A stretch of DNA of 64,000 bases from Tetrahymena thermophila SB210 (Eukaryota > Ciliophora > Oligohymenophorea > Hymenostomatida > Tetrahymenidae). Both the position numbers and the translations under genes were made by a program. Below, one piece after another: positions 6,390 through 53,095 of the stretch; positions within the stretch are counted from its first letter, which is position 1, and every line of letters starts with the position of its first letter. The notes beneath the pieces are model-generated. The model worked only from the letters and a program-made list of their open reading frames with translations. It was not told where the DNA came from and ran no database searches. The DNA is taken from positions 558,001 to 622,000 of the forward strand of contig NW_002476534.1 of NCBI RefSeq assembly GCF_000189635.1. The letters run 5' to 3'.

Positions 6390-9300
6390 TCATTATTCAT
6401 TTTGTTAATCATTTGATAGAACATCGTCACCAATATTGTTGCTACTTTACAATTCCATATCACTTCTAATTTCATTTAAGTTAAATGCTTAGTTTGTTAC
6501 TGATCCTTCATTGCCATCCTTTGTAACCATTTCACTTAAAAAGGAAGAAGTTGATATGGCTTCTTCGTTATCTTTTTATTCTTCAGTCTCAATATTTTTA
6601 GCTTACTTTTTCAATTTATTTTTTTATAATTGCTAATTAATAAATTCTGATATTTCTTATTTTAGCTCTAGCATTGGAATCAAATCAGATTCTTAAAGTT
6701 GGTCTCTGGTAAAAGGATCAGTTTTGTCATTGAGAAGGTGCTTTACAATAGTTACTCTATCAATAATAACTTCACTCTTTGGTAGCTTGACTGGGTCAGT
6801 CATGATTTGATTAAGCAGTGGATCTAAATATTTTTCAGGAACTTCGGCATAAAGGAGTGCCTCAGTTCTTTACTTCTCTTCATACATCTCAATGACCCTA
6901 CTTTAGAATGAGTTAAATTCATTTTAGATGCTTTCTGATAATATATTGAGAGTTTATAGCTTTGAAACAGATTTCTTAAAGGCTTCTATGTCAAAAATTC
7001 TCTCATCTTCAACAAGTGTTTAAACGAATTTATCATATTAGGAGTATTAAATGTACAATTTAACTATACACAATACTACTGTTTTTAAGTCAAAGCCTAA
7101 CTCTTTTTATGCCTTCTCATTCAATCTAAAAATATAAAACAACATTTTGTTATTAGATAAAAGAATAAATAAATAAATAAATTATATTACTAATCGAGAT
7201 GGTGATATGTTAATATTTTCATAAAAGAAATGTTTATAAAATTTGTAAGTTTGAGTTTGATCTCATCTTGGAGAAATATGTCTTCACTATAAAGAGAAAG
7301 AGTTTCTATATTCTTATAGTAAGCTGCTAAATACTAATAATACTTTTTTACATGCTGTTAGCTCTATTTCGCTTCACTTTCCTTTTAATGGTAAACAAAA
7401 TGGTTTACTTGATTTCTGTTTAAAGTTTAAAAGTGAAAGAATTTGCACATATAATTCGAAATTATATCTAATAAAAATATCAAATCATTAAAGTAAAGAT
7501 TTGCAAACTCTAAAAACATAATTTTATTTTATTGAGATATTTTAATAAGCTAGTTTGAACAAATTTTGTTTATTTTCATTTCTTAGTTTACTCTTAAAGC
7601 AATTTTGTTTGCCTATTCTTCTTCTTGATCTTATTTTTTCTTTTCTTAATTTTCTAAGAGGTATGTAAAAATTTTGCAAAAGTGGTATCTAAAGATAAAT
7701 TTCTCATTTAATTGGTGTTAGTGATGATGACCATCAGTCGATTTTTCGATTTCTATAAACACTTTTAACAGCCCAGGTATCATATACTCTTGACAAACTT
7801 ATCCTTAGTTGAGTAAAAAAGAAGGAGAGGACTCTTTAAGTGCATTATTTCTATCGAAGCCAATAATCATTGAAAAAATCTCTATAATCTTTTGTCTAAA
7901 GTGTGGGTTATTGCACCATTGTTTATTACCCATCATTATTATTTAGCAGTCTATGATTTTCTAGAATGAGCTCTAAAATGTTTCCAATAAAAAGTAAAAA
8001 TTATTTTATTTTTAAATTATGGCGAAAATTAAATTATTATTTATATCTTATATACTCACCTCTTTTAGTTCAATTAAAAAAAAATATAAACAATAAATAA
8101 ATTACCTAAAATTCTTAAATAATTTTAGGAAATAAGATAAGGACAAGAGATGTAAACTCATTTATGTCTTCGATGAAAAAGAAAGGTAATTGAGCATATT
8201 TTTGAGTGTATTCAGTCTAGAGCTAGTTTATAATTCCTTTTTCATCATACTACTGATTGTTTAATTTCCAACAATACAACACTTAAAGTTCAAAGAATTT
8301 AATTAACATAGAGTTGATATAGGGATCTTCTATTAGAATATTATATGATAATTTTTCTTTTTACTTTATCAAAAAATTATTGATTTCAACAACGTTGTGC
8401 TAGTTGAAGTGGCTTGCTGATATATTTAAATAATAAATTAACATTAAATGAATAATTATAAATAAATTGATTAATTAAATACCTTAATGTAGTTTTTCCT
8501 AAAATGACTTTAAGGTTTTGAAAAATGGAAGATTCAAATGAATGGCTGCCATTACAAAACGATAAATCTGAGAAATAAATTAAATGTTTTGTGTTTAATC
8601 TTAGCTTAATGATGTTTTGCTTTGTGGATGATTAGATTACTTTTACTCTTCTTCTTAATTTTCTCCTACTATTCCCTTTTTTTCCCCTTCTTATGGTTAT
8701 TAATTAGGCTATGAATCTTCTCCACTTTTTTACATTTATATTTTCAATATTTCTTTTTCATATTTTTCTTTGTCAAAAATTTGAATGTGATCAAAAAATT
8801 TATAGAAGCCAGTGGGCTCAGTAATGATATTTAAATCAAGATTGTTTATAACTTCATTCATTGTATTAAAATCTAATGTTAGGGATTAAGTAAAGTGCAG
8901 GAGTATCCTTAAGAAATTGTATAAAAATCCAGGACTTGAACAATGTTCATGAGAATGATATGTCTTGAGAATACCCTTATTCATATCTAAAATTTTTTCA
9001 ATCCAAAATATGAGTCTATCTTTTCTTTTTTTGGCTATTATGTTTAGCAATTAGTAGAAGAGCTTATGAAATTCATTAATTTTTTTTCTTATAATTTTAG
9101 TATCTTCTTGAATAAGTTTTTATACTTCTTTACTAAACCTTAAATTAACTTACTTAAAAACTTCCATAAATTTTTCCCATTAGTCAGGGAAAGTAGTTAG
9201 AGAAAGCATTAGCCCAAATATCGTATTGCCTTCTAAATAAAGACCATACTTAAGACTTTCAGAATAGAATAAAGGAGAACTATTTAAAAAATAATCAAGA

Positions 9301-10199
9301 ATGTAATCCTTAGTAAAAAGTTATTTCATTCTATCAATTGAATTAGAAAAAGGGTCCATATTCTCAATGCTTCCCTTTTCTCTTATGTTATTGTAAATAC
9401 GTTTGAATACTGAATTCATAATATTATGGAATTCATCATGCTTACTGAGTCTGTCCATAACTTCATTAAAAGTAATTGCGCTATATCTATTGAAGTTATT
9501 GTAAAATGCATCTAATAATATATTACTGATATCAAAGATGTTATTATGCTTCTCATCCTAAATACCTTCTAGATCAAAAGACTCATATTAAGTTAGCAAA
9601 GTAATCATATAATTAAAGCTTGATTCTATAATTTCATCATAGTCATCAGCAGAAATTAATAACTGCTACTATTAAACCTTCTTTTCACTATCACTTTAAG
9701 CAAAATTGTTTTTTTGTAAAATAATATTTTTATTATTAGCACATTTTTTAATGACTGAAAATAAATATTTCACTCTTTCTTCATGATTTTCAAAAAATAT
9801 TCCAATTTTGCTCTGTAAGACTTCATAAATAACAAAATCCTACACATTTTACTTGTTTAATAGCGGCTTCTTCAATTTTGGATCAATCAAATCGTTTTCT
9901 ATTTCCTTAAGCGAAAAGAATTGATTTCCCTATTCTTCTACAATAGATACTTATAAAAGTTATTCTAAAATATGGCTTATTTATTCTTCAGGGCAAAGGC
10001 TATCAAAATCAGGCTTTTTTTATTTTTGGGGTGACTAATATCCTTCATCATATTATTATCTTTCCAGCATGGCTAACCTTTCCCTTCTTTGCAAATCTTA
10101 TTACTTCTAACGCTAAATTTCTTCTAAGTCTTCAAACTCAGGAAGATCGTTGCTACTTTTTTGATCTAAATTTGAAGAACTTGAGCCTGAATTTCCCAT
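6390..10199 (-). CDS. ubiquitin conjugation factor E4 (UFD2/UBE4 family, U-box)
   Basis: E4 factors extend ubiquitin chains on substrates already carrying ubiquitin and act in proteasomal degradation, usually with CDC48/p97. Minus-strand exons are 10199-8483, 8416-8106, 7972-7191 and 7125-6390; the introns (66, 133 and 65 bp) are GT..AG and the frame closes to 1181 residues. The central elongating-factor core is recognisable (NPFS near IDRMKQ, ESLKYGLYLEGNTIFGLML, SSPGFLYNFLRILL, LPFFFIEDINEF). Near residues 1037-1105 lies a U-box (PLLNQIMTDPVKLP, ..DRVTIVKHLL..TDPFTRDQL). The protein starts MGNSGSSSS, which resembles an N-myristoylation start. After the U-box is an acidic, Q/S-rich tail of about 75 residues, longer than in yeast Ufd2. 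ATG 10199 is chosen because it opens the frame directly after an AT-rich leader. Confidence 0.93.
7126..7190 (-). other. intron 3 of E4 gene
   Basis: 65 bp, GTAATATA...TTTTTAG, phase 2, upstream of the U-box. Confidence 0.85.
7973..8105 (-). other. intron 2 of E4 gene
   Basis: 133 bp, GTAATTTA...CATTTTAG, phase 0, inside the core domain. Homology continues on both sides of it. Confidence 0.85.
8417..8482 (-). other. intron 1 of E4 gene
   Basis: 66 bp, GTATTTAA...ATATCAG, phase 1. The length is a multiple of three and contains no in-frame TGA, so retention would not break the frame. Confidence 0.85.
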
Positions 10200-11006
10200 T
10201 TTTACAATTTTTTCTATACTCGTTCAAATAACCTTCAAACTTTTTGCTAATAGCTTCTTTTAATAAATTTTATAAGTACTTTAAACCTAATCTTATTTAA
10301 ATAATATAAATTATCAAAATCCTTATTTCGCGAAAATTTTGTTGCTTTTTATTCTTTTTTCTATTGACTTAAATAGGCTCTGATTTTACAAAGAATCTCC
10401 AATAAAAAATTCTTCATCAAAAATTGATTAGTGAAAAATGGATTATAAAGAAATTTAGAAAGAGAATAATTACTATCATTATTTAAAATTGATTAATAAT
10501 TTTGTATTAAAACAATAAATAAACAATTTATTTTGCTTTAAAGTAATTACAAAATTTTAATATAATTAATTTAATCCTATCCCTACACCAATTATTATAA
10601 TTAAGTATACTTTAAAACATTAAAATAGCATATACACATCATAAAATTCTAACAAAAAAAATAGATTGCTTTTCCTTAATATGATTGATTTATAAAATTT
10701 CAAATAAGTAAGCTATATGTAGAGCAAGTCAAATTAATTTATATAAAGTAATAAGTAAAAAATCTAATATAATAACCTACTATTTTAAAAATAGGAAATA
10801 AAAAATAAAATTCAAAATCAATTAATACTTTAATGATGGTTATTTTATCATCTAGTAAATAAAAGCACAAAAATTATTATTTAAAAATATTTTAGTTTAT
10901 TTATAAAAATTATTTTTAGCTTCCTGCTTTTATAAAATTACCAGATATAATGATACTGATAATTGTAAAAATTTTATGTGAAATGATGAGCTTAATTTCA
11001 GAGGAA
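10200..11006. other. spacer upstream of E4 gene, with an E2F-like palindrome
   Basis: The segment lies between the E4 start (10199, -) and the stop of the next minus-strand gene (11007). The only GC-containing motif that stands out is a perfect palindrome TTTCGCGAAA at 10326-10335, listed separately. No gene is supported. Confidence 0.6.
10326..10335. promoter_or_regulatory. palindromic TTTCGCGAAA, E2F/DP-like site
   Basis: A perfect 10-bp palindrome about 127 bp upstream of the E4 start codon. It contains the core TTTCGCG of E2F/DP sites. In DNA this AT-rich a CG-containing palindrome is rare by chance. The role is inferred only. Confidence 0.35.
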
Positions 11007-13370: not shown

Positions 13371-14217
13371 TTATTTTTTTTTTTGTTCTATTTTACTTTC
13401 ACTTTTTTTACTTTTATTTATTAATATATTATGGATTTATTTTAATCTATATTATATTAAAATTAGTGTACCTATTGTTTACTTATTTTAATCAGATATT
13501 AATTAAACCCTTACGTATTAAAAACTAAAGGTAACTTAATCATCGTTTAACATTAATAATTAAAAATTAGCAATATTTTTATTTCTTATTTTAAAAGTAG
13601 ACATACTATTACTTAAGTTATACCAACCATCAGCTTTCAAAATGAAGAGCAAAAAAAATAAAAAGATAAATTAAAAATTTTATATAAAAACTTTGTTTAG
13701 AGTTAATTTTTTAGATATATATATGCTTAAAAAATCTTGAATTCATGAATATTTTTTAAATATACCATAAATTCTCACCAGCATAAAATTTTCACCATCT
13801 TTCTTACATATCGATCAATATTATTTAATAAGTAAATAATAAATACAAATTTAGGGGTTACAATTTGTAATCCCTCAAATTCCTTAATATGATATAGGTT
13901 AATATTTAAGTTTAAAAGCTTTGATTTTTTTGTTAAGATGAAGGATGGTTTGTGAGAAATTCATTTATTTAAGTAAATTTAATTTGTAATTTTCATTTAT
14001 TTAATAAGCTATTTATTAACTTACAAAAATAAATTTTATATTCATAAATATAAAAAAAATAATAAATCTATCTATCTATGTATGTATGTTTTAGGTTAAA
14101 TTATCCTATACAAAATATTAAATAATAAAAGATTTTATTTTCTGTTATTCAAATATTTAATATTTATTCATCCCTTTTTCACCACTATTTTATCATCAAT
14201 AATATATTTTAATTAAG
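13371..14217. other. AT-rich spacer
   Basis: This spacer lies between the start of the membrane-protein gene (13370) and the terminal exon of the LRR gene (14218). The ORF at 13319-13528 overlaps a real gene in antisense and is F/Y/L-only. Nothing else is supported. Confidence 0.6.
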
Positions 14218-17200
14218 TCAACTAATCTCTTTAATTTAAGGCACTTGATTAGTACTTTTAAATATTATGAATCACTCATTTAGTTATAACTTTTATATTA
14301 AATTAAAATAAAATCTAAAAAAATTAAATAGAAGAAAATTTTTTAATTAAAAATAATGTTTAAAATTAATAAAAAAAAATATTAGCAGAGTAAAAAAGAA
14401 AAAGAAAATAAATTTAATAAAAAGCTAATAAATAAATTAAAAGAGTTATATTATTTTAAATTAATATTTATAATTAAAAATATCACAATTCAAAACAAAT
14501 AAACTATTTTTACGCTAGGTCAAGTGCTAAACTTTAGAGATTAGTGCAATTTGCTAAAGCAGAAGCTAATGCTGAAGCACCTGTATCATCAATTTAATTT
14601 CCCCTTTTTAAATATTGAAGAGAAAATATATAATTAATTAGTTATTTAGAAGGAAAATATGAAGAAATAATATGAAATAATTAGAAATGAATTAATAAAT
14701 AAAAAAAATATTGAAAATAAAAAAGTGAGCTAAATTAACAAAAATATATTAAAAAAATACAAGTAAAATAAAAAGAAAAATAAATAAAATAAAAAGCCAA
14801 TAAAAAAATTAAAAGTGTTATATTGTTTTAAATTCCTTTTTAAAATAAAAATATCATAATCAAAAACAAATAAACTCTTCTTACATAAGATTAAGTTCCA
14901 AAATAGAGAGATTAGTGCAATTTGCTAAAACAGAACCTAATCCTAATACTCCTTAATTACCAATTCTATTTTTCCTTTTTAAATATTGAAGAAAAAATAT
15001 ATAATTAATTAATTAGTTATTTAGAAGGAAAAAATGAAGAAATAAATTGAAATAATAAGAAATGAATTAATAAATAATAAAAGCTAATATTGAAAATAAA
15101 AAATTGAGTTAAATTAAGAAAGATTTAAGAAAAAAGCACAAGTAAAATAAAAAGAAAAATAAATAAAATAAAAAACTAATAAACAAAGTAAAAGAGTTAT
15201 TTTATTTCAAATTCCTTTTTAAAACTAAAATATCACGATCCAATACAAATAAACTCTTTTTACGCAAGATTAAGTGCTAAAGTTTAAAGATTAGTGCAAT
15301 TTGCTAAAGCAGTACATAATCCTAATGCACCTTCATCACCAATTTAATTGAACCTTATTAAATATTGAAGAAAAAAAATATTATTAATTAGTTATTAGAA
15401 TGAAAAAATATAAAAAATGAATTAATAAATAATAAAAGCAAATGTTATAAATAAAAAAATGAGTTAAACTATGAAAGATATAATGAAAAAAACACAAGTA
15501 CAATAAAAAAGAAAAATAATTTAAATAAAAAGCTAATAAACAAAGAAAAGAATTATATTGTTTTAATTTAATTTTTATAACTAAAAATATCATAATCCAA
15601 AATAAATAAACTCTTTTTACTTAAGAGTAAGTACCAAATATGAGAGATTAGTCAAATTTGCTAAATTAGAACCTATGCCTTATGCACCTGTTGCATCAAT
15701 TTAATTTTCACTTTTTAAATATTGAAGAAATAATATATGATTAATTAGTAAGGAATAATATGAAATAATAAGAAATGAGTTAATAAATAAATAATAAAAA
15801 AGGAAAAAATGAAGAAAAAATATAAAATAATAATAATTGAATTAATAAATAAAAAATAAAAGCATATGTTGACAATAAAAAAGAGTTAAATTAAGAAAGA
15901 TAGAAGAAAAAAAATACAAGTACAATTTAAAAGAAAAAGAAAAATAAATTAAATTAAAAACTACTATACAAATTAAAAGTGTTATATTATTTTAAATACA
16001 TTTTTATTACTAAAAATTAAACAATCCATAACAAATAAACCGTTTTTACCCAAGATCAAGTACTAAATTTGAGATATTAGTGCAATTTGCTAAAGCAGAA
16101 CATAAGTTTAATGCACAAACTGCACCAATTGAAGTTTTACTTTTAAAATATTGAACAAAAAATATTTAATTAATAAGTTATTTAGAAGGAAAAAATGAAG
16201 AAAAAATATGAAATAATAAGAAATGAATTAACAAATAATTAAAGCAAATAAATGTAGGAAAAAAAAATTAAAATTAAAAAAGATATAAGAAAAAAAAACA
16301 CAATTAAAATAAAAAAGTAAAAGAAAAATAAATTAAATAAAAAGCTAATAAACAAATTAAAAGAGTTTTTACCAAAGATTAAGTTTCAAATTTTAGAGAT
16401 TAGTGCAATTTGCTAAAGCAGAACTTAAGTATTATATACCTTAATCACCAATTTAATTAAGCCTTTTTAAATATTGAAGAAAAAATAAAAAACCAATTAG
16501 CTATTTTGAAGATTGAAGAAAAGAAAAAATAAATAATTAATTAGTTAAAGAAATGAATTTATAAATATTATCACAACTCAAAACAAATAAACTGTTTTTA
16601 CCAAAGATTAAGTTCCAAATTTTAGAGATTAGTGCAATTTGCTAAAGCAGAACTTAAGTATTATATACCATAATCACCAATGTAATTAGACCTTTTTAAA
16701 TATTGAAGAAAAGTATATTATTAACTAGTTAAAGAAATGAATTTATGAATAATAAAAGCAAATTTTAAAAATAAAAAAAATGAGTTAAATTAAGAAAGAT
16801 AGAAGAAAAATAAAAAACACAAATAAAATAAGAAAGTAAAAGAAAAATTAATTAAATAAAAAGCTAATAAACAAATTAAAATAATTATTTTGTTTTAAAT
16901 TCACTTTTATAACAAAAAGTATCACAAATCAAAAAAAATAAACTGTTTTTACCAAAAATTAAGTTCCAAATTTTAGAGATTAGTGTAATTTGCTAAGGCA
17001 GAACTTAAGTATTGTATACCTTAATCACCAATTTAATTACACCTTTTTAAATATTGAAGAAAAGTATATTATTATCTTGTTAAAGAAATGAATTTATGAA
17101 CAATAAAAACAAATTTTAAAAATAAAAAAAATGAGTTAAATTAAGAAAGATAGAAGAAAAATAAAAAACACAAGTAAAATAAAAATAAATTAAATAGAAA

Positions 17201-18082
17201 GCTAATAAATAAATTAAAATAATTATATTGTTTTAAATTCATTTTTTTTAACTAAAAGTATCACAATCAAAAACAATTAAACTGTTTTTACCTAAGATTA
17301 AGTGTCAAATTTTAGAGATTAGTGTAATTTGCTAAAGCAGAACTTAAGTATTATATACCTTAATCACCAATTTAATTAGACCTTTTTAAATATTGAAGAA
17401 AAGTATATTATTAACTAGTTAAAGAAATGAATTTATAAATAATAAAAGCAAATTTTAAAAATAAAAAAAATGAGTTAAATTAAGAAAGATAGAAGAAAAA
17501 TAAAAAACACAAATAAAATAAGAAAGTAAAAGAAAAATTAATTAAATAAAAAGCTAATAAACTAATTAAAATAATTAAATTATTTTAAATTCATTTTTTT
17601 TAACTAAAAGTATCACAATCCAAAACAAATAAACTGTTTTTACTCAAGATCAAGTGTCAAATTTTAGAGATTAGTGTAATTTGCTAAGGCAGAACTTATG
17701 TCTTATGTACCTTAATCACCAATTTAATTACATCTTTTTAAATATTGAAGAAAAGTATATTATTATCTTGTTAAATAATGAATTTATTAATAATAAAAGC
17801 AAATTTTAAAAATAAAAAAATGAGTTAAATTAAGAAAGATAGAAGAAAAGTAAAAAACACTAGTAAAATAAAAAAGTAAAAGAAAAATAAATTAAATAAA
17901 AAGCTAATAAACAAATTAAAATAATTATATTGTTTTAAATTCATTTTTATAACTTAAAGTATCACAATCAAAAACAAATAAACTATTTTTACCTAAGACT
18001 AAGTGTCAAATTTTATAGATTAGTGTAATTTGCTAATGCAGAACTTTAGTCTTTTGAACCTTAATCACCAATTTAACTCTAC
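14218..18082 (-). CDS. leucine-rich-repeat protein built from 11 duplicated exons (5' end not found)
   Basis: On the minus strand eleven exons of exactly 90 nt each encode one 30-residue leucine-rich repeat of the form xxNQIGDQGaxxLssALANCTNLxnLxLxL. Exons (high-low): 18082-17993, 17733-17644, 17381-17292, 17042-16953, 16691-16602, 16462-16373, 16139-16050, 15710-15621, 15353-15264, 14974-14885, 14603-14514. Each is bounded by ...AAAAG before and GTAA(A/G)AA after, and all joins are phase 2, so any number of units keeps the frame. No unit contains TGA. A 37-nt last exon (14254-14218) gives TNQVPQIKEIS and a TGA. The repeat resembles the ribonuclease-inhibitor-like LRRs common in Tetrahymena, which bind proteins. 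The four units nearest the N-terminus carry ANYTNL where most others carry ANCTNL. The first exon and start codon lie upstream of 18082 and were not identified, so the gene may be incomplete or a relic. Confidence 0.75.
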
Positions 18083-18400
18083 CTTTTAAAATATTGAAGA
18101 AAAAATATATAATTAAATAGTTATTTAGAAGGAAAAAATGATGAAAAAATATGAAATAATAAGAAATAAATAAATAATAAAAGCAAATGTTGAAAATAAA
18201 AAAATGAGTACAATTAAGAAATTGAAGAAGAAAAAAAAGTACAATAAAAAACAAAAATAAACAAAATAAAAAGCATTTCAACAAATTAAAAGGGTTTTTT
18301 GCTTTAAATTAATTGATTTTAGGAAATAAAATATCACAATCCAAAACAAAATAATTGTTTTTATCAATTACAAGTTTTAGAAGGAAAAAATCAATAAAAA
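14380..18400. repeat. tandem array of ~350-bp exon-plus-intron units
   Basis: A degenerate tandem repeat with unit starts (by exon low end) at 14514, 14885, 15264, 15621, 16050, 16373, 16602, 16953, 17292, 17644 and 17993. Spacings are 371, 379, 357, 429, 323, 229, 351, 339, 352 and 349 bp. The 90-nt core is an LRR exon; the rest is intron. Shared intron words include the plus-strand strings gagttaaattaagaaagat and aagctaataaacaaatta. The higher-coordinate units are more alike than the lower ones, suggesting more recent duplication there. A further unit without its exon core is visible at about 18290-18400. Confidence 0.9.
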
Positions 18401-19595
18401 ATAAAGTAATGAATTTAAAATTTAAAGTAAAAATTAAGTTTTAAAAACGAAAAAAAATTTGCATTTTTAAAATGAATGAACATAAGTGATAATTTGTATT
18501 GGTAAAATAAATTTTAAATAAACTGAAAGTTAAATAAATAGTTTGAAAATATTAATAATAAAAATAATAAATTTATAAATTAACTATACATATTAATATT
18601 GAGAGCCGCCTAGTCAGATTAAATTGAAGAATTTAAAAACTTTTAATATTAGTAAATATAAATTTAAAGTATTTTGATAAAAAAAATAAATAATTACTTC
18701 TTTTAATTCGCTGTAGTATTTAATCTATTATATCATTTATTTTTTTGATAAAAAATATTGAATAGCAATTTATGGAAATTTAATTAATAAACAGTGGATA
18801 AAAGGAACATATAAATTATATGATTTTATAAATTTGCTTTTCATCAAAGAAATCACATAAAATTTAGGATAAAATTCATTATTAAATCTTAATATTTCTT
18901 TTTAAAATGCGTACTTTAAAATATAGTTGGAACCATAGATTTGATATAAAAGATAATTAGAATGTTAACTCATTGTAATAAAATAATTTGCCTAATAATT
19001 TGCAAATTTAGCTTTTTTGGAAATTATTCGACTATTAAATAATCAATATTTTCTTTTAAAATAATTAAGCATATAATATATAAAATAAAAAATTTAATAT
19101 ATGGAATTTATTAATAATAAAGAAACATAAAATAAATATTTTATAATAAAAATTAAAATAAAATTAATTAATTTATCTAATGAATAGCAAATCCATAAAT
19201 TAAATTCTTAGTTCATCACATCCATAAGAATTTAATACTGGAAGTGTTATATAAAAGCAGTTTTTTATGTTATCTAATAAATATATAATTTGTGGTCTTA
19301 AGTAGTAAATTAATTTAGAATATATGGTTATAATTAAAAGCAATAAAAAATAATAAAGTTGGATTGTGCTTTTTTTCTTAATAGAAATTACATATTTATC
19401 ATTTATTTAATATTTTTATACAAAAGTTTTGTAATTTTTAATTCAAATTTAAGAGAAGATAAATATTTTTGAAAACAATTTTAATTATCAATAAAAAACA
19501 AATTTTTTATTATTAGTTTGAAATAATTTTTTTTAGTTTATAAATGAATTTGCTTTAGATTAATTTGAGTAAAATAACTTTTATTTTTAAATAAT
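18083..19595. other. spacer upstream of LRR array; one degenerate unit and one repeat copy
   Basis: It should contain the 5' exon(s) of the LRR gene, but no convincing one was found. A minus-strand ciliate-code ORF (18973-18614, 119 codons) exists, but its composition is F/I/K/L/N/Y-rich and it offers no phase-2 donor. About 18290-18400 is an LRR unit lacking its exon, and 19045-19239 is a dispersed repeat. Confidence 0.5.
19045..19239. repeat. dispersed repeat, copy 1
   Basis: It matches 25377-25544 in the same orientation, from aatattttcttttaaaataa through an AT-rich middle with small indels to cacatccataagaatttaat. No coding content is evident. It may be an old mobile-element fragment or a duplicated spacer. 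Confidence 0.7.
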
Positions 19596-37389: not shown

Positions 37390-38871
37390 TCATTTTATCG
37401 AATTATTTTCTTCTATTTTAATATTGTAATAAATACATATTTTACAAATTTAATAGAAGGCTTCCATAATTTCTTCTTATTCATAGTTTGATTTGACCAA
37501 AATTAGCTTATTTGTTTCAGCAAAATTAATTTAATCTTCCATTAATACTTTTTGATTTGTCCCGTAACACAATAATATAATTTATTAATTTTTATTTTTT
37601 TCATTTTGTAAGCTATTTTTTGATAATTAAAGATACATCTCGAGGTCTTTTAAATCATTATAATTGTTATTAAATACTAAAACAGCCTGATGTGAAGAAT
37701 TTTTCAATAACATTTTGGTTATTGGAAAAGCATATTCAATTGAAAGAGTATCATGTAAACAAAATTAAAACTCAATATCTTAAATATTCTGAGACGTAAA
37801 TGCATAATATTAAAAGTCTTCCTTTTTACTCACTTTCATGATAAATAAAGACTTACCTGCCATAGGAGGTCCTATAAACAACAAATTAAAACTGTTCTAT
37901 TTTTTTTTTAAAGAGCTTAATTATTATTATGAAAAAATAAAATTTTAAATTTTAAAGTCTTTGCTATATTTTTTGATAATAAATTCATAAACTTAATTTA
38001 TATTCCTTTAATCAGGATTAGAATTTATCATATTATTAATAATTAAATCGTATAATTAGTATCTTAGAATATCTTTATTAAAAAAAGACAAATCCAACTT
38101 TTTTTATCTATTTCTCCTATAATCAGAAGCTTCATCAAAGCTAATTTAAATTCCTAGTAATTCAAGAAAGACTATTCCTAATGAATAAATATCAGTTTTA
38201 TTCGTGATTTTATGCACATTTCTATCACTTAAGAGAGATTCTGGAGAAATGTATTTGAAAGTTCCTCCATTGCATTATGATATGTAAGATTTATCTACAT
38301 CTAATAAAGTTGAAAGGTTAAAGTCAGAAAATTTTGCTTTAAGATTACAATCTAAAAGAATGTTATCAGGCCTAATGTCGAAGTGAATTATCCTATTTTC
38401 TTCAAGCGTTTTTATTCCTTCTAATAATTAAAGCATTAAATCTATTATCACCTAAATATATTGTTTTTCATTTAAAAATTATTTCAAAGAGCATTAAGCT
38501 AACTCCATCACAATTGCAATAACATTAGTTGTTTAAACTACTTAATAAATTTGTAAAGCGTAACCTTTTAATTATATTTTTTTTTGTATTTCAATCTCAT
38601 TAAGCACTTGTATTTTAGTATATTCGTTCTCAATTTTCATTAACTTCACTGCAACTTTTTTCAAATCCTTTTCGATTAGCTATTGATTCTTAATAGAATC
38701 CTATTAAACGCTAGCTTCATAAACTACTCCAAAATTCCCTTCGCCAATTTATCTTTCAATGTTATAACCTTCTTTGCTTAATTTTTAAAATATTTATTTA
38801 AATTGCTCTTAACTCAATTTATTTGAGCATTTTGTACTCAATTCTAATATTCTTTTGTTTTAGTTTCCCAT
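37390..38871 (-). CDS. protein kinase fused to a Ras-like P-loop domain
   Basis: One uninterrupted frame of 494 codons (493 residues). Residues about 36-315 are a protein kinase: glycine loop GEGNFG (43-48), VAVK lysine K76, catalytic loop HFDIRPDN (163-170), metal-binding DFN (183-185) in place of DFG, SPE in place of APE, and TDIYSLGIV. The HRD arginine is replaced by Phe, but the catalytic Asp and Asn remain, so activity is plausible though atypical. After a Q/S/K-rich linker, residues about 334-480 form a small P-loop domain: GPPMAGKS (Walker A/G1), a strand IEFQFCLHDT in the position of the Rab DTAG region, AVLVFNNNYNDLKDLEMYL, and IILLCYGTNQ in the place of G4. The layout follows Rab/Ras GTPases, but the G3 (DxxG) and G4 (NKxD) motifs are degenerate. 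Nothing in the sequence breaks the fusion: both parts share one frame without stop or intron. Confidence 0.85.
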
Positions 38872-39204
38872 TTTATTCTCTTTATATTTTTTAATTAGAA
38901 ATTTTAATATTTTTAAATTTTGTAAGTGTTTATTTATCTGTTTTAAAATTATTGATAATATAAATTCTCTTTCTTTTTCAGTCTTTAATTACTTCAATTT
39001 TTTTTTAACAATGGATAGGAGGCACTTAAATAAATTTTTTTTTTCAATAGTTTTTTATATTTAATTTTAAATAAGATATAAAATGTTTTATTACAATAAA
39101 TAATAGGTTAAAAAGTGGTATTTAACCAATAACTTAAGATTAATTTGGGAATATATAAGGATTAATAATTAATTAATAAATTATTTGGTTTTATAAAATT
39201 GAAA
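38872..39204. other. short divergent promoter region
   Basis: 333 bp between the kinase-fusion start (-) and the next gene (+). AT-rich, no motif recognised. Confidence 0.6.
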
Positions 39205-40145
39205 ATGAGCAATCAAAAGAATTTATCTAAAAAATTTACAGTTGTTTAAAGTAAAAAAAGCTAAAGAAATTTATCAGCATCCTCAAAATAAATAGAAGGT
39301 TTAAGAATTACTCAAGATGAAGATAACAATAACGTTAATCTCAATTAAAAATCACTGCACGAAGCTGTAACTACTAAAACTATTAAAATTTAACATTTAT
39401 TACAAATATTATGACTTTAAAAATCCATTTTATAATTTATAAAAATGATTGAAAAGAGGGAATTGATTAATTAAATTTTTTGAAAAAGCTTATTTATGAG
39501 TATCTGTCTAAAACCAAAATGGAGGGAATATTATTAAATGCTTTAAAATCAACGATTAAAGACGATCTAATCCCAAAAAATCCATATTGCAGCATGAGTA
39601 GATCTTTGATTGCTTCCAACTTAAAAAGCGATTTAGTTGCTAATTTTGAAAATTTAGCTAAGCTGTTCAGAAAAAACCCAGTGGCTAAAGAAGGACCATA
39701 TAAATTGACATCTGTGAGCTTTTAAAATACAACCAAAATATATGGTTTGAAACATATTCTAGAGCTCATAGATATGCCAAGATTTTCATTATTTTTTGAT
39801 GCGATAGATGACTTACTACCAGACTATAAAATAGATAGCAATAATGTTGTTATAAATATATCTAATAGCATTAGTGGAGGACTTATCTTTAAAAGCGAGT
39901 TATTTCCTTATGCAAGTTCTCATTCAAAAGATTTGGAGATCTTTTGTGAAGTTTTCATCACTTGTGGATCAGTAGAACAAGCTATAGATTCCTATGCAAA
40001 ATTCGTACAATATTCTAACCACAAATATAAAATTTAAAAAAGCTTAATGAAATTATTTTTTCTTTGTAAAAAGTCAAAAAAGAGAAAAGCTAATAACATA
40101 ATTTTAAAAAAATTAGATTTTGTAAGATATAATAAGCATTTGTGA
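39205..40145 (+). CDS. unrecognised 282-residue protein
   Basis: Exons 39205-39366 and 39459-40145, with a proposed 92-bp intron (GTAACTAC...GAAAAGAG). Codon use and composition in exon 2 are clearly protein-like: LIYEYLSKTKMEGILLNALK, ANFENLAKLFRKNPVAKEGP, ILELIDMPRFSLFFDAIDDL, VINISNSISGGLIFKSELFP, FCEVFITCGSVEQAIDSYAK. The helix-rich start of exon 2 is vaguely LisH-like, but I do not assign it. Exon 1 is S/Q/N-rich and less certain, since the first ATG and donor were chosen only because they keep the frame. There is no signal peptide or membrane span. The next gene begins only 180 bp downstream on the same strand and the two could belong to one transcript, though a TGA separates them. Confidence 0.6.
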
Positions 40146-45021: not shown

Positions 45022-46408
45022 TTTTTCAATTATCTAATTTCTTTTAAAATAGTGTAATCAAGTAATTTTTTATTGAAGTATATTGTTTTTTTGTTATTTA
45101 TATCCCTCAATTTTCTTGAGTATTTTTTATCACTATAATACAAACAAAATAACAAAATTTCGCATGTGCCTTAAATAATTATAGGTATAGTAATACTACT
45201 TTGCAATATATTTATAAATATTTTGATGAATGTATATTAATTTTTACTTGTTGAAACAAACTAAATGTTTTTTATGATTAAATTGCAAACATCTTTACAT
45301 TTGAGAATTTCTCACACTCAATTTTATTATAAAACTTCACATCTTAAAAATTTAAAGTAAAATATTATTGGATTTTTAAAATTGACCAATCTCTTTCATC
45401 AATAAAAGTGAAAAATCAAAACAAAAAAATTATTTTTAAGTGATCTTCTATCATCAAAGTCTTAAAATTCTAAAAAAATCCCAGTTATAAATTTGCAATA
45501 AAAACTTTTAATGTTTTTAATAACTTTATCAATAACCCTGATTATCAAATATTTTTTTTAATATACTTAAAAATGTTTTAAATTATAATTTTGATTCAAC
45601 ACTCGATTAATGTGCCTATTTCTAATTTTTATTAAAAGTAAACTTTTAGTTACTCATATGAATATAGTTTAAATATCCATTCGCATTTAGAAATATATTT
45701 TAGTAATTAAACTGTGTCAAAGATTAAATTTATTGAGCAAAAATATATCCTAAAAATTATTTTCAAGCGAGTTGATTATTTGAAATTAATTTGTTTGTTT
45801 TTTTATTTAAATTGACTTAGAATATATTTTTAAAAATTTATAATTTTTTTTTTATGGTAAAAATATAAATACTGAAATAGCTAATTTCTAATTTAGTAAA
45901 TTGAAAACCATTACTAAAATAAATTAAATCAAATCAAAGTGATAGAAAGAATATAAATATTGGCAAGTAATTCTAAATGTAAAAAACAATTTAATCTGTT
46001 AAGAAAAAGATTGTTTGTTTTCTTAGTTAATTTTTGATTTTGTATAAGATTGTATTAAATTTGGTTTATAAATTAATTAAGAAGTATTTGCAAATGCTAG
46101 CGAAATCAAAAAAAAAAGCAAGAAAACATTTAAAAACAGATAAATTAAATTTCTTAGGAAAAACTAAGACTTTTAATTTATAATTTGCTTGTTCAAAAAA
46201 TAAACCAACAATTAATTGATTTTGGTTTAGAAAATTATCTGACTTAAATATAAACAATAACAAAGATAGATCAATAAATAACAAGAAATTAAGTCGATTT
46301 GTTAAATATATTTTTTAGTTTCAGTAATCATAAATAAACTTTGTTCACTTCGTTCGTAATTGAAAGTAAATCTATAGAGTCAGTTAGAGAGGACAAAAGT
46401 TCTTTAGT
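45022..46408. other. divergent promoter spacer
   Basis: 1.4 kb between the SNARE gene (-) and the PH-TTC39 gene (+). The ORF at 46284-46066 is F/L/K/N-biased and not supported. No clear motif. Confidence 0.6.
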
Positions 46409-49400
46409 ATGATAGAAAATTCGACATTTAATACTGACGTTTATGAACGGGCTGTTATTTCTTTTAAAACATAAAGAAGAGTCCTTGTCAAATATGGAAA
46501 AGTCAGCAAGTTTAAGATAACTAGATATTACGTGTTACAGAATGAGTTTTTGTTGTATTATAAAAATTCTAAGTGCGAAAAATCTATCAGCTCTTTTAGC
46601 TTAGCAAGTTGCTCATATTCAAGAGATACTTCAAAAATAAAAAAGATAAATTAATCTATTAAAGTAGTTACTTCTGATAACAAGAAAACATTTTGGCTAC
46701 ATCCTATTTCAAATGATGAGCTACCTTTACTTGAAAGATACATAAAATTTGTTAGCGAAGGTAAATTCAATAACGATTAAGTTATTTAGCAGTTGCTAAT
46801 TGATCCTCTCTCCAAGTAGGAGAAACTAACATCAGCATATTCTTCACATCTATAAATAGCTTTCACTACTGCAAATCAAGTTTCTATATAGAATACTCAT
46901 ATTAACAGAAGTTCTTAACAATATAATTAAGAAACTATTTAAATTGGAAAATTACAAACTTAGGTAAATAGATTTCTGAATGGCAACTAAGCTTACGAAG
47001 AGGAATGCAGTTCAGAAAATATAAAAAATAATATCAATATGAGCTATTACAGCCAAATGAGATAACTAGAACCATAAACTATAGGATTTTAAATATAAAC
47101 TGCTGAAGATAAATTCTAACAGTAGAAATAGTGTGAATTAAAATAGATAGAGATAGAATAAATTTAAAAGCAATAAGAAATATCTCAAACTGAAAATTAA
47201 CTTTCAAAGCAAAGCACTCTCTAAGAAAAATAAAAAACTGTAAATGCTGGTGAAGAATAAATAGAATTCTCAAAAATAAATTAAATGGCAAACTAAAATT
47301 CACAAAGGGAATAATGTTATACAAATTTGATTCAGCAAAAGTAGTTTGTAAAATTTTAGGTTACTTAGAGAAGCTTGAACGATAAAGCAGACTAATAAAA
47401 TTAAAGAATATGTGAAGAAGAATAGCTTTAGGTTTACCAGCAATTGAGAAGAAGCATAATATCTCCAAATTTTAATTAATTATAAGGGAATTAAGGTAAT
47501 TTACAAAACTAAAATAATCTCAATTAGTAAAATAATGAATACTTAGTTACACTTGGGTAGATGAGTTAAAATAATATGTTTACAAATTAAGCAAATATGA
47601 GTGTGGATAATAAACAGAACATTAGCTATGAAAAATTTAATGGTAATACAATAAGCTAGATTTTTAAAAACATGGATAACAATTTTTCTCCTAATCCTAT
47701 TGTCGAAAGTGGAAATTTCATCTCTAGTCCTGGAAACTTTAAAATAAATTCTTTATAAGATAATAGTCAAAACGTATAAGCCATTATTGATAAGGATATA
47801 AGTGCAATAATAAAACCAAATGATCATTCAAATTATCTTGATATTGATGCTGATTTGAAATTCTCAAGTGACGAAGAGTATTCTCAGAATAAGAATGAAA
47901 AACTTGAATCAGTTAGACTGAAATATGAAAGCCTTTCCCCTAATGCAAACAAAGGATACTTAATAGGGCATAATTTATAAAATAGTAGCATATTTAACTA
48001 AACTAATATTAATAAAAACTACAAAATCAATTAATAATTATTAAATTAAGTTAGCACAAAACTTTTTTAAGAAAACAATGAAGCAGAAAACATCATCATA
48101 ACCACCACCAATAACAACAATATAAATATCAACAAAAACAACAATAATAATATTAATTACAACAACTAGAATAATAATGGATTTTTCTTTGGTACTTCAA
48201 ATATGAGTAATGTTCCTTCAAGCAAGTAACTTTCAGGTAATCCAACATGCTCAACTTAAGCAACTTAAAATGTTATTTCACCCTAGATGAAATAATTAAG
48301 ATACTCTAATTCTTTGAATAATATGCAAAATTTGTAGAATCATTAAGTAGATCATAATAGAAACATTTAATTAGGTCCTTGTAATTTAAGTTCAAGTACT
48401 CTTTAGAATATATTTTTCCCAGAAAGTTAGAAGTATTACACGGAGTCTCCTCAAGGATCTTTTTTTTCTCATAAAGTTGATACAAATACCAACTTTTAAG
48501 ATGCGGCTAATAACAGTACAAATCAAAGATTCTTATAATAAAAATAAAAATTAGTAAAAGACCATGCAAATTTAAGTGATGTGCATGATCTCAGTGAATA
48601 AGAAAATATTTCTTCAGATGATGAAGAAATAGTACCATCAACTTAGTTTTTTATTAAATAACAAGTATTCTATGCAGGTGCTTCAAAGATGTTTATGGAA
48701 GATGGGTTTTCGTCTAGCGCCTTACCTCAGCAATCTCAAAGAAATAGTCGTATCGGAGTGATTTCAAATTATTCGTTTGATAACAAAACAATGAGTGATA
48801 CTGATCTTTTTGATTAAGTTGAAGGTAATTTTCAAAAAAGTGCTATAGATATCATTTAAAATGAAGAAGAAAATTAAAGAAAAGCTAAATAAAGTAAAAG
48901 AGCAAGTGAAAATCTACACAGTAAATCAGCCAGTTTAATAAATTAGCATTTAGCATAATAAAAAAACTAGCAAAAAATACATGAAGACTAGAACCAATAA
49001 TAAAAGAATCCTTTATATATGAAAAACCTTCAGGCAAAAACTAATTTGAGATATGTTGAATCAAGTACAGCAGGAGTTTAAATTGAGAGATAAGATAATT
49101 AATTATAAGATTTAATTTATAGAGATTAGTAAGTAGATGAAGATGCAGGCAATTATTTGGATGAAGATGATGATACTAATCCAGCTATTGCTAATAATGT
49201 CACTTATATCATTGAAAAATATAAAGAATAGAATTACAATGAAAAAAATACTGGACTTTTTAATGCTAATGGGAATAATTATGTAAAGAAAACTGACTTA
49301 AGTACAATGATATCTTAAGAAAATTAGGTTAAAAAAGAAAATAGTGATAAAAAAAACTAAAAAAGAATGAATAATCACATGCATACAAAATCTACTACTG

Positions 49401-51766
49401 GATTCAGATAGAATGCATCGAATTCAAAGAGAAGTTTATCGAATGTCACTATTGATACTGATAAGTGCAACATTGAGGTAAAAATAATTAATCATTTTAG
49501 TTTTTTTTAATTTAATAATTATTTTATTTATTTATTAGTACACTTAAAATACTCACAAAGAACCTCAAATAAAGGACAAAAAGGAGTTTTATAATAAGAA
49601 AAATATTATTGGATATATTGTTCCTAAGATGGAAGATGTGATACCTTACTTAAATTATTAATAAGATTAACACTCAAAAAATGTTAACAAATAAATCTCT
49701 GTTGAAAAATGTTACTCTGATGGATATTACTATTTGTGGAGCTTTTAATTTGCTAACTCACATGAAATTTTTAAAATCCATAGAGAAGAAAATATTAATT
49801 TCGAATATGCTTTGCTAGAGCACAATCTTCTTAAAATTATTGTTACAGGAAAAAAAGATTTAATTGCTACAACTGAGTAAAAATTTGCAGAATTTTATGA
49901 GTATCTTATAGCTTGTTAGAAAGATGTTTAAAAAAAGGGAGATAAATCTACCATTAAATGTCTTTCGGGTATTTCTTAAATGATGATTGACCTTATTAAA
50001 TCAGAAACATACCTTGTTAGAGGTTTGCTCCAAGCATTTTTAAATAACAAATTCTAATCTTTTATTTAATTTAAAAATGCTTACTAAACATTTTAGAAAG
50101 TAAAGCAAAAAATAGAATCTTCTGTTCCTAAAAATTCATCCATTCATGAATATCTAAAGAAAGAATGTGATATTTATACAAAGAGTAGATTTTACTTCAT
50201 ATCTGGGCTCTTCAACATCGGACTCTCCATGATTCCAAGTTATTTCTTAAAGATTCTTAGCTTAATTGGAATACAACCTAATAAATAATATGGATACGAA
50301 TGCTTAGAAAAGTGCATAGAATTACAGTCAATCCGTTCTTCTTATGCCTCACTTCTTTTGTGCATAGAATACATAGAACTGAACCCAAATGTTGAAAAAT
50401 CTATTATACTAATTAAAAAAATGATAAAAACCTTACCTTAATGTCCATTATTCTATTGGATGGCTTCTTTGCTTTCATGGAGATATACCAAAGTAAATTA
50501 TTGAATCAATTTACATTTTTAACTTTAAAAGTAAAAAAAATAGTTTTTTAAATTTATTTTTTATTAAATTAAGCCTGACGACGCTCTAAGTTTAATAAAT
50601 AAGAGTTTATGGAATTGTGGTGAAGAACTAGGTTAAATTTCCTTTTACCTAAAATTTGAAAAAGGCTGGTATAATGTTTCGTAATTTGATTGGAAATAAG
50701 CTCTTGATCTCTTTTAAGAAATAGTGGTTATGGCTATAGACGTAGATAATTTTGATATGGATCTATTCAGTAGTCTCGCCCATCAAAAGAAGTTACCTGA
50801 AGCCCCAAAATTAATGATGCAATTTATTGAAGAAGCTAAAAATAAATTTAAGCAAAAGCACAAGATTATTCTCCCACATAAATGCTGCTTAGTGGCTTTA
50901 GTTGCATGCTGCTATGAAAACTAAGGACTTATTGATAATATGGATTTATGGTTTCTTATGACCTAATATCTTATCAAGGTAATTTATTAACTTTAACATT
51001 TCCATTTTAAAATTTTTTTAATATACTGTAATTATTAACTTGTTAATAAAATTTCAATTAATGTTTAAATAATATTCCTAATCCTTTACATTTTTCTATT
51101 TTTATTTTTCTCAACAATTTTTAGGGTAATATTTATAAATCAATTGCAGTAAATATTTTTTTTTGTTGATAAATAATTAACATATGAAATTTAAAATATA
51201 AATTTAATTTTATTTAAAATAAATAGAAAAATTAAGACCATAAAACAGGAGTTGATGAAGATATATCCAAACTTTGTGCAAAATATATCAACAGATAAAA
51301 TAAATAACTTATAAAATATGAAATATTGTATTTTGTTAAAGAAATTACAAAATTAAGAGAAGATATGCTTAATAAAATGGTGGAGGAAATATAATTTTAT
51401 TATGAATCTGAGTATAGTAGCATTTAAGATATATTTTATAAGAATATTTTAAAAAACAACTCTCAAAAAGCAATAGATTTTGGTAGTACAATATTCCTCA
51501 GAATTGTATCTGGTTGTCTATAGTAAGATTTTAATATGGTTTATCAGTCAGGAAAAATCCTCGATAAAATAGCTGAGTTTATTCCTGTAGACCATCATTA
51601 TATTTTGCATCATTCTTACCATTGGCTAGCTCGTTGCTAACTTTAATAAAGTCTTTTCTCCAATTCTAAAGAAAATCTAAAAAAATGCTTAAAATATAAA
51701 AAATGTGAATTTACTCTAGAAAATAAAAGCTAAAAGCTTCTTTAAGAAATCGATTTTGCAAAATGA
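46409..51766 (+). CDS. PH-domain plus TTC39/IML2-type TPR protein
   Basis: Exons 46409-49477, 49539-50492, 50574-50978 and 51227-51766, all joined in phase 0, giving 1655 residues. The N-terminus (about 8-112) looks like a pleckstrin-homology domain: KYGKVSKFKITRYYVLQNEF LLYYK, then KKTFWLHPISNDELPLLERY ending in the usual C-terminal helix with Trp. Residues 115-1020 are a long Q/N/S-rich linker with acidic patches. Residues about 1180-1655 match the TTC39/IML2 family: a helix pair YLVRGLLQAF, RFYFISGLFNIGLSMIPSYF followed by LKILSLIGIQPN, SYASLLLCIEYIELNP, WMASLLSWRY, LWFLMTQYL and a C-terminal TPR end (HHYILHHSYHWLARCQL). In yeast, Iml2 acts in clearing protein inclusions via lipid metabolism. 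A PH domain could tether it to phosphoinositide membranes. The assignment of the C-terminal family is firm; the PH call is good by pattern. Confidence 0.85.
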
Positions 51767-53095
51767 AATTAATAAATAAATAAATAACTGCGAATATAAA
51801 AAAAACAAATAATTTCTCCAGTATTCAAATCAAAAACTTTAGTTTAAAAAAATTAAAAAAAAGATTCTTCATATTTAAATCAACTTTATAAGAATCTTCA
51901 AGCATTAAATAATTAATTAATTAAATAAATAATGTAAATAATATAAATATAGTATAATATCTAATTGTATATATTAAAATTAATTGTAAATAACATTAGT
52001 CTATAAATTTAAGTATTAGAGCTTTAATATTAAATACTACATTTAATAAATTTAAAATCAAAAAATATTTTACAAACAAACTATTACACTTAATGAAAAT
52101 TAATAAGTTACTAAATTAATATTTTTAACAATCTATTAATAAATTATTAATTAATAATGAATTTTAAATTTTTGTTTTAATTAATAAATATTTTGTTTAT
52201 ATAATAAAATTTAAAAAAATATTTTTTTATATAAAACAAGATAATATTAATAAGTTATAGATTAATATTTTTAACAATTCATAAATATTATTGATTAAAT
52301 ATTTATCATTAAAATTTTAATTTTTTTCATTATAAGTAAATATTTTTTTTACAATTTTATTATTATTAGTTTATTTTACATTAAAAAATATTTTATAAAT
52401 AATAAAAAAATAAATTTGTTTGCTTTTTAATTAAATTTTAAATTTTTGTTTTAATTAATAAATATTTTATTTATATTTTCATGAATAAAATTTAAAATAA
52501 TATCTTTTTATATAAAACAAGATAATATTAATAAGTTATAGATTAATATTTTTAAAAATTCATAAATATTATTAATTAAATATTAATTATTAAAATTTTA
52601 ATTTCTTTTATTTATAAGTAATTATTTTTTTTACAATTTTATTATTATAAGTTTATTTTACATTAAAATTTATTTTATAAATAATAAATTAATAAATTTG
52701 TTTGCTTTTTAATTAAATAAAACATGATAATATGAATAAGTTATAGATTAATATTTTTAACAATTCATAAATATTATTAATTAAATAATTATCATTTTAA
52801 AAAATATTAAATTTGTAATTTTTTTATTTACATTTTTATTATTAATTCAAATTTAAAATTAGATTTTTTTATTAAAAAATCAACAATCATTAAAATTTTG
52901 TTTGCTAGAAAAAATTAAATAATTTAAATAAATGAAATATAAATAAATAAATAAATTGATAGATTATTGATGGAATATGTGATGGAAAAATAAAAAAAAT
53001 TTATGAATAAACATAAATATTGGTTTTTACTATTAAATTTAAATTTTTTATATTAAAGTATTTGATTATTTAAATTAAAAATGCTTTATTTAACT
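51767..53095. other. convergent spacer with a tandem repeat
   Basis: 1.3 kb between the 3' ends of the TTC39 gene (+) and proteasome gene (-). It contains a ~275-bp tandem repeat at 52150-52800, listed separately. No gene is supported. Confidence 0.65.
52150..52800. repeat. tandem repeat, ~275-bp unit, about 2.3 copies
   Basis: Copy 1 (from about 52161) and copy 2 (from about 52435) share attttaaatttttgttttaa, then a segment with ataagttatagattaatatt, then ttacattaaaa and tttgtttgctttttaattaa in the same order. A third, partial copy with an internal deletion runs from about 52714 to 52800. Confidence 0.85.

Follow-up and report, generated by a model that had tools for sequence, protein, structure and literature searches.

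The stretch of Tetrahymena thermophila SB210 DNA analysed here, referred to as the window, comprises 64,000 nucleotides of contig NW_002476534.1 and carries on its minus strand, between positions 14514 and 18082, a tandem array of eleven leucine-rich repeat (LRR) exons. All eleven are exactly 90 nt long, are preceded by AG and followed by GT, lie in phase 2 (one base, 29 codons and two bases) and contain no in-frame TGA; when the exons are joined, the two alternative forward frames contain 16 and 5 TGAs. The introns that separate them measure, in the order of transcription, 259, 262, 249, 261, 139, 233, 339, 267, 289 and 281 bp (range 139-339 bp, median about 261 bp), and TRF recognises array units of 351, 357 and 379 bp, the 351-bp unit with 90% matches. 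An initial annotation had described eleven TGA-free exons of exactly 90 nt within these limits, identical phase-2 joins and introns of 139-339 bp, and all of this was recovered on re-measuring. Its account of the extent of the gene was correct for the array but left the strand unstated and missed three further exons.

These additional exons were found by aligning 14 5' flanks (the window and 13 paralogues) and 15 3' flanks (the window and 14 paralogues), both flanks being conserved among paralogues. With two N-terminal exons and one C-terminal exon added, the array becomes the middle of a 14-exon gene running from 18736 to 14196 on the minus strand (Table 1). The joined coding sequence of 1173 nt specifies 390 residues and remains open throughout until a TGA stop; the splice sites of this model are predicted. 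First two exons of 39 and 50 nt recur in 12 of 17 gene models including that of the window, although the parser favoured near lengths. For the last exon, a frame beginning after TTTTTTTAG was discarded because it has the wrong phase, and the AATATAAAAG acceptor agrees with both the phase and the paralogues. Within the long intron that precedes the array, at about 18355-18375, we find ATAAAAAC in place of the GTAAAAAC or similar sequence of other donors, and this stretch resembles the remnant of a 90-bp exon that was lost. Taken as a whole, the locus is best explained, with a probability of roughly 0.93, as an LRR-only member of the Tetrahymena 90-bp-exon LRR family (group III) that appears to be complete and intact, with an array that arose through tandem duplication of exons together with introns.

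Table 1. Predicted exons of the LRR gene in the window, with the intron that precedes the array.
Feature	Position	Strand	Basis
Coding exon a, 39 nt, start codon, MIQQIKYYSELKE	18698..18736	-	ATG and GT donor conserved in 14 5' flanks; in frame
Coding exon b, 50 nt, phase 0 to phase 2, FLNSSIQSDQAALNIN and split codon	18590..18639	-	5'-flank alignment; in frame
Intron b-E1, 507 bp	18083..18589	-	Sequence, similar in paralogues
E1, 90-nt LRR exon	17993..18082	-	Length, phase, AG/GT
E2, 90-nt LRR exon	17644..17733	-	Length, phase, AG/GT
E3, 90-nt LRR exon	17292..17381	-	Length, phase, AG/GT
E4, 90-nt LRR exon	16953..17042	-	Length, phase, AG/GT
E5, 90-nt LRR exon, followed by the shortest intron (139 bp)	16602..16691	-	Length, phase, AG/GT
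E6, 90-nt LRR exon	16373..16462	-	Length, phase, AG/GT
E7, 90-nt LRR exon, followed by the longest array intron (339 bp)	16050..16139	-	Length, phase, AG/GT
E8, 90-nt LRR exon	15621..15710	-	Length, phase, AG/GT
E9, 90-nt LRR exon	15264..15353	-	Length, phase, AG/GT
E10, 90-nt LRR exon	14885..14974	-	Length, phase, AG/GT
E11, 90-nt LRR exon	14514..14603	-	Length, phase, AG/GT
C-terminal exon z, 94 nt, split codon then YNQMSDSQYLKVLIKCLKLKRLVDLIKIYY, TGA stop	14196..14289	-	Conserved in 15 3' flanks; in frame

Glutamine is encoded in the gene by 32 TAA and 3 TAG codons as against a single CAA and no CAG. Across the window, 87 stop-to-stop frames of at least 200 codons are obtained with translation table 6 and none with tables 1, 4 or 10, so that frames of this length depend on reading TAA and TAG as glutamine. 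The telomerase RNA-binding domain encoded in the genome agrees with that of T. thermophila (PDB 2r4g) at every one of about 100 aligned residues, which points to the same species; some 15 residues at the beginning of the query, probably intron, fall outside the match. Elsewhere in the window, a 717-codon frame on the minus strand (8073-10223) contains a Ufd2P_core domain (ubiquitin elongating factor, E 1.4e-28), a second minus-strand frame (37393-39273) contains a protein kinase domain (E 9e-35), and a 1113-codon frame on the plus strand (46364-49702) shows a weak PH-domain match just under the Pfam cut-off and no PDB match. About two copies of a very AT-rich 281-bp tandem repeat are present at 52203-52799, within a stretch of 15% GC.

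The 390-residue model matches the Pfam family PF13516 (LRR_6) with an E-value of 2.6e-26 and 90 bits. Five Pfam families are found at E up to 0.01, four of LRR type and one Hcp; the last was judged a chance match (25.7 bits against a cut-off of 23.5, with no single stretch passing), and Pfam identifies no kinase, NTPase, NACHT or other non-LRR domain in the model. Among PDB sequences there are 21 matches at E up to 0.001, all to LRR chains, including those of NLRX1 (3un9), RanGAP1 (9b62), NOD2 (5irl), radial spoke protein 15 and ciliary LRR proteins. The sequence of the first exon, MIQQIKYYSELKE, does not by eye resemble a signal peptide. The protein is best explained as a ribonuclease-inhibitor-like solenoid, predicted to consist of a two-exon N-terminal cap, 11 repeats and a C-terminal cap exon, and it may serve as a binding protein with a diversified surface for the partners to be recognised.

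The gene has many relatives in the 101-Mb assembly of 445 contigs that was searched. With up to two mismatches allowed, 4189 places match a 22-base exon core and none match its reversed control, which excludes chance; the start motif of the first exon occurs at 326 places with at most one mismatch (reversed control, 3). At the nucleotide level the repeat has at least 129 matches in this genome, a number obtained by scoring 30 candidates out of 1050. Exon matches were then counted, at E up to 0.001, in the window and in 28 fetched stretches, which are the best BLAST matches rather than a random sample and six of which contain runs of N. The exact 90-nt AG/GT form is shown by 358 of 378 exon matches, and not one of the 358 contains TGA. 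The other 20 comprise four at locus ends, one in a run of N, six with alternative in-frame lengths and nine without such a form, one of the nine containing TGA. The six are readable as in-frame exons of 84, 87 (three cases), 93 or 99 nt (at L009, L022, L016, L020, L018 and L031), and the 90-nt length could be not quite invariant unless these odd-length copies are decaying. Damage was also seen in individual paralogue exons, with donors changed to AT in L018 and TT in L030, a 1-nt loss together with TGA in L017, and no acceptor at a 90-bp exon in L013, L015 and L024. Since the 90-bp exons are symmetric, skipping of a damaged exon would keep the frame.

Both ends could be recognised for 27 genes, which hold between 5 and 17 exon matches. 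Only intact exons are present in 18 of them, and at least one exon match departs from the exact form in the other nine, which suggests that some of the family may be in decay or vary in exon length. The same range of 5-17 is obtained for the 15 genes that are intact, free of N runs and free of intervals of 600 bp or more. Both caps and a frame open to the stop were found in 17 of 18 gene models, the window included, and one model was not parsed; this figure is favourable by design, as only intact arrays were taken and the parser looked for combinations of the first two exons that kept the frame open. At several loci (among them L009, L013, L017, L019, L023 and L036) two or more family genes lie in a row on one strand.

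The relationships among units carry a record of how such arrays change. Exons E1-E6 find their nearest relatives among themselves, which is best explained by local amplification and would represent the most recent local burst. Introns 1-4 pair most closely as 1 with 3 and 2 with 4, at a divergence of 0.042-0.049, and this suggests, without proving, the duplication of a block of two units. The earlier proposal that one exon plus one intron is the unit of duplication therefore stands as regards local amplification, and does not stand as a strict one-plus-one rule. For E7-E10 and for introns 5-9 of the window the nearest relatives lie in other loci; E11 was left out of the unit comparison because no 90-nt exon follows it downstream. 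Of the 291 units compared, 36% by introns and 28% by exons find their nearest relative within their own locus, as compared with 3.5% after shuffling of labels. Mean intron divergence climbs with distance along the array: introns at offset 1 differ by 0.156, those at offsets 7 and 8 by 0.18, and those of different loci by 0.194. Together, the nearest-relative and divergence patterns are what would be expected as the remnant of tandem duplication combined with exchange between loci. Exon and intron distances over all units are weakly correlated (r = 0.196), so that exchange probably also separates exons from introns.

These patterns are consistent with an array that grew as exons were duplicated in tandem along with their introns, through unequal (ectopic) exchange and with crossing-over as the probable mechanism. 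Units could be gained, lost or skipped without a change of reading frame, as every exon is a multiple of three nucleotides long and all have the same phase. The initial annotation had argued that copy number is free to change in this way and had envisaged LRR length variation as the outcome; the symmetric 90-nt phase-2 exons agree with the former, and the latter is seen in the 5-17 exon matches of the 27 paralogous genes, a comparison between paralogues of one genome.

A spread of the family mainly through retrotransposition or co-retrotransduction by the REP element, rather than through unequal crossing-over, must be weighed against this. Xiong et al. (2019; PMC6564038) report REP next to LRR units in the MIC genome and put such spread forward as a possible second route, and the nearest intron relative lies in another locus for 64% of units. 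The copies nevertheless retain their introns, and the local tandem burst of E1-E6 also speaks against such a route, which we regard as improbable. Far less probable still is that the locus is a decaying pseudogene or a non-coding satellite of about 350 bp in which the exon-like appearance is a relic. Such a reading could draw on the raw difference between window exons, which is lowest at third codon positions, on the nine matches without plausible in-frame form, with their one TGA, and on estimates of omega, given below, that for two of the three sets of pairs are not separable from 1. It is opposed by the 14-exon frame that stays open to its TGA, by the conservation of the caps across paralogues, by a scaffold omega of 0.36-0.38, and by the absence of TGA from all exact exons, whereas the intron spectrum predicts 7.5-13.4 of them among the changes sampled.

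Selection on the repeats cannot be read from raw counts. The mean pairwise difference between window exons is 0.216, 0.261 and 0.149 at codon positions 1, 2 and 3, respectively. The codon-position check proposed for this DNA was run, with third positions differing least, and proved unusable in its original form. By itself the result would point to an absence of purifying selection; the raw test was dropped because the introns are AT-biased in mutation and third positions are already AT-rich. The intron mutation spectrum has C to T at 0.040 and T to C at 0.010 per site, and this strong bias makes it necessary to correct omega by that spectrum. We therefore took the neutral rate from the intron spectrum and chose pairs by intron, exon or whole-unit distance, giving 56, 95 and 44 independent pairs (values below are in this order). 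Overall omega is 0.89, 0.74 and 0.80, with 95% intervals of 0.75-1.09 for intron pairs and 0.66-1.01 for whole-unit pairs: the average constraint on the protein is weak. At scaffold positions omega falls to 0.38, 0.37 and 0.36, and leucine occupies each of positions 12, 16, 22, 25, 27 and 29 in 263-284 of the 291 exons. The dN/dS comparison of exon copies with introns that had been proposed earlier thus shows constraint at the scaffold, with an overall omega that is not far below 1.

A different picture emerges on the predicted strand face. Omega for helix and loop is 1.07, 0.79 and 0.86, and for the strand-face class, placed according to the general LRR pattern and not a structure, it reaches 1.56, 1.35 and 1.53 with 95% lower bounds of 1.25, 1.09 and 1.19. 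Within this class positions 1, 3, 26 and 28 are high and positions 23 and 24 low (0.36-0.71); position 7, outside the class, is likewise high. The site classes were drawn after the per-position counts had been seen, and a split-half test was added for this reason. In 60 random split-half resamples of the loci, which overlap and are not independent, positions picked in one half have a held-out omega in the other with a median of 1.54 (5-95%: 1.22-2.01), and it exceeds 1 in 59. The split-half medians are 1.75 for positions 26 and 28 and 0.27 for the alternating leucines at 25, 27 and 29, a contrast chosen after a first look at the counts. Positions 6, 7 and 11, all outside the strand face, were picked in 50, 60 and 58 of the 60 splits. 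Omega above 1 at repeat positions 1, 3, 7, 26 and 28, as against about 0.3 at the alternating leucines, is suggestive of diversification.

The same residues could have diverged through relaxed constraint or mutation bias instead of diversifying selection, and we give this alternative a chance only somewhat short of even. The AT bias of intron mutation is strong, mixed exon and intron histories may disturb polarisation by a third copy, and two of the strand-face positions, 23 and 24, show no elevation. Relaxation alone gives an omega of at most 1, and the strand-face values above 1 after correction for the spectrum therefore speak against it, as does their recurrence in the held-out halves. The excess over the intron rate is 1.45 times for N and 1.64 times for S. 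Pairs chosen by exon distance differ by 0.171 in introns and 0.111 in exons, those chosen by intron distance by 0.085 and 0.170, and those chosen by unit distance by 0.082 and 0.127. Greater conservation of introns than of exons was rejected as a signal, as it reverses when pairs are chosen by exon distance; the apparent excess is at least partly an effect of choice acting on mixed histories.

If diversification of the exposed residues is accepted, the array may be viewed as a germline diversity generator for a binding surface, a model that we advance tentatively and as the less likely side of the question. In this model gain and loss of units would set the length of the solenoid, exchange within introns would re-pair neighbouring repeats and remake the codon split at each junction, and positive selection would diversify certain exposed residues while the leucines stay fixed. 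The junction codon specifies 19 residue types among 291 junctions. Diversifying selection, if upheld by data from strains or species, would support a recognition function for the family.

The family itself is already known. Exons of exactly 90 bp, arranged in tandem and separated by phase-2 introns, have been described in 10 Tetrahymena species (Xiong et al., 2019; PMC6564038). For T. thermophila that account counts 934 genes of group III and between 1 and 51 of these exons per gene, and for an example gene the figure legend indicates RNA-seq support. The exon array and the idea of unequal crossing-over, perhaps accompanied by REP retrotransposition, are thus both in print, and with them a particularly plain example of exon shuffling through symmetric exons; according to the same source, REP is for the most part eliminated from the MAC. 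A role in recognition is also suggested there, gene-level Ka/Ks is given with a median near 0.4 for young LRR genes, and selection is described as purifying; a term search of the main text gave no mention of positions with omega above 1. Selection at the level of residues would accordingly be the new part of the present analysis, the recognition idea having been hinted at there. Among the papers listed by literature searches no further one could be recognised as dealing with 90-bp exon arrays, and the main text of another Tetrahymena paper (PMC10868616) contains none of the terms leucine, LRR or exon.

Comparison with the published description of group III genes, as far as it was consulted, revealed no structural difference from the window gene (PMC6564038). 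Both have at least three consecutive 90-bp exons, of which there are 11 here, and phase-2 introns on both sides of the exons, which holds for all 11 and extends to the end of exon b. In both, a unit of about 350 bp is visible at the DNA level, through CRS masking there and through TRF and genome matches here, and the introns are long, with a peak at about 257 bp for T. thermophila in that study, a median of about 261 bp in the window and a median of 281 bp in our set of 291 units. Six conserved leucines (with positions numbered here from the 291 exons), a variable number of exons (1-51 there, 5-17 in 27 genes here) and a Tetrahymena genome in which TAA and TAG specify glutamine are likewise shared.

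With the LRR proteins of the RI, NLR and RanGAP type the window gene has in common RI-like repeats of about 28-30 residues, and it differs from them in having no NACHT or other domain recognised by Pfam. A gene architecture with exons corresponding to repeats is known in proteins of this type, and in the mammalian RI and NLRP genes each exon, of about 171 bp, encodes two repeats. Plant NBS-LRR proteins and receptor kinases and the lamprey VLRs likewise have LRR arrays that vary in the number of repeats and are diversified on their exposed face. Unlike the plant proteins, the 390-residue model has no kinase or NTPase domain, and we know of no somatic assembly in the Tetrahymena family of the kind that occurs in lamprey VLR. 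Should the model of a germline diversity generator be true, the hundreds of LRR-only proteins of Tetrahymena would constitute a protist counterpart of the recognition repertoires of NLR and VLR type.
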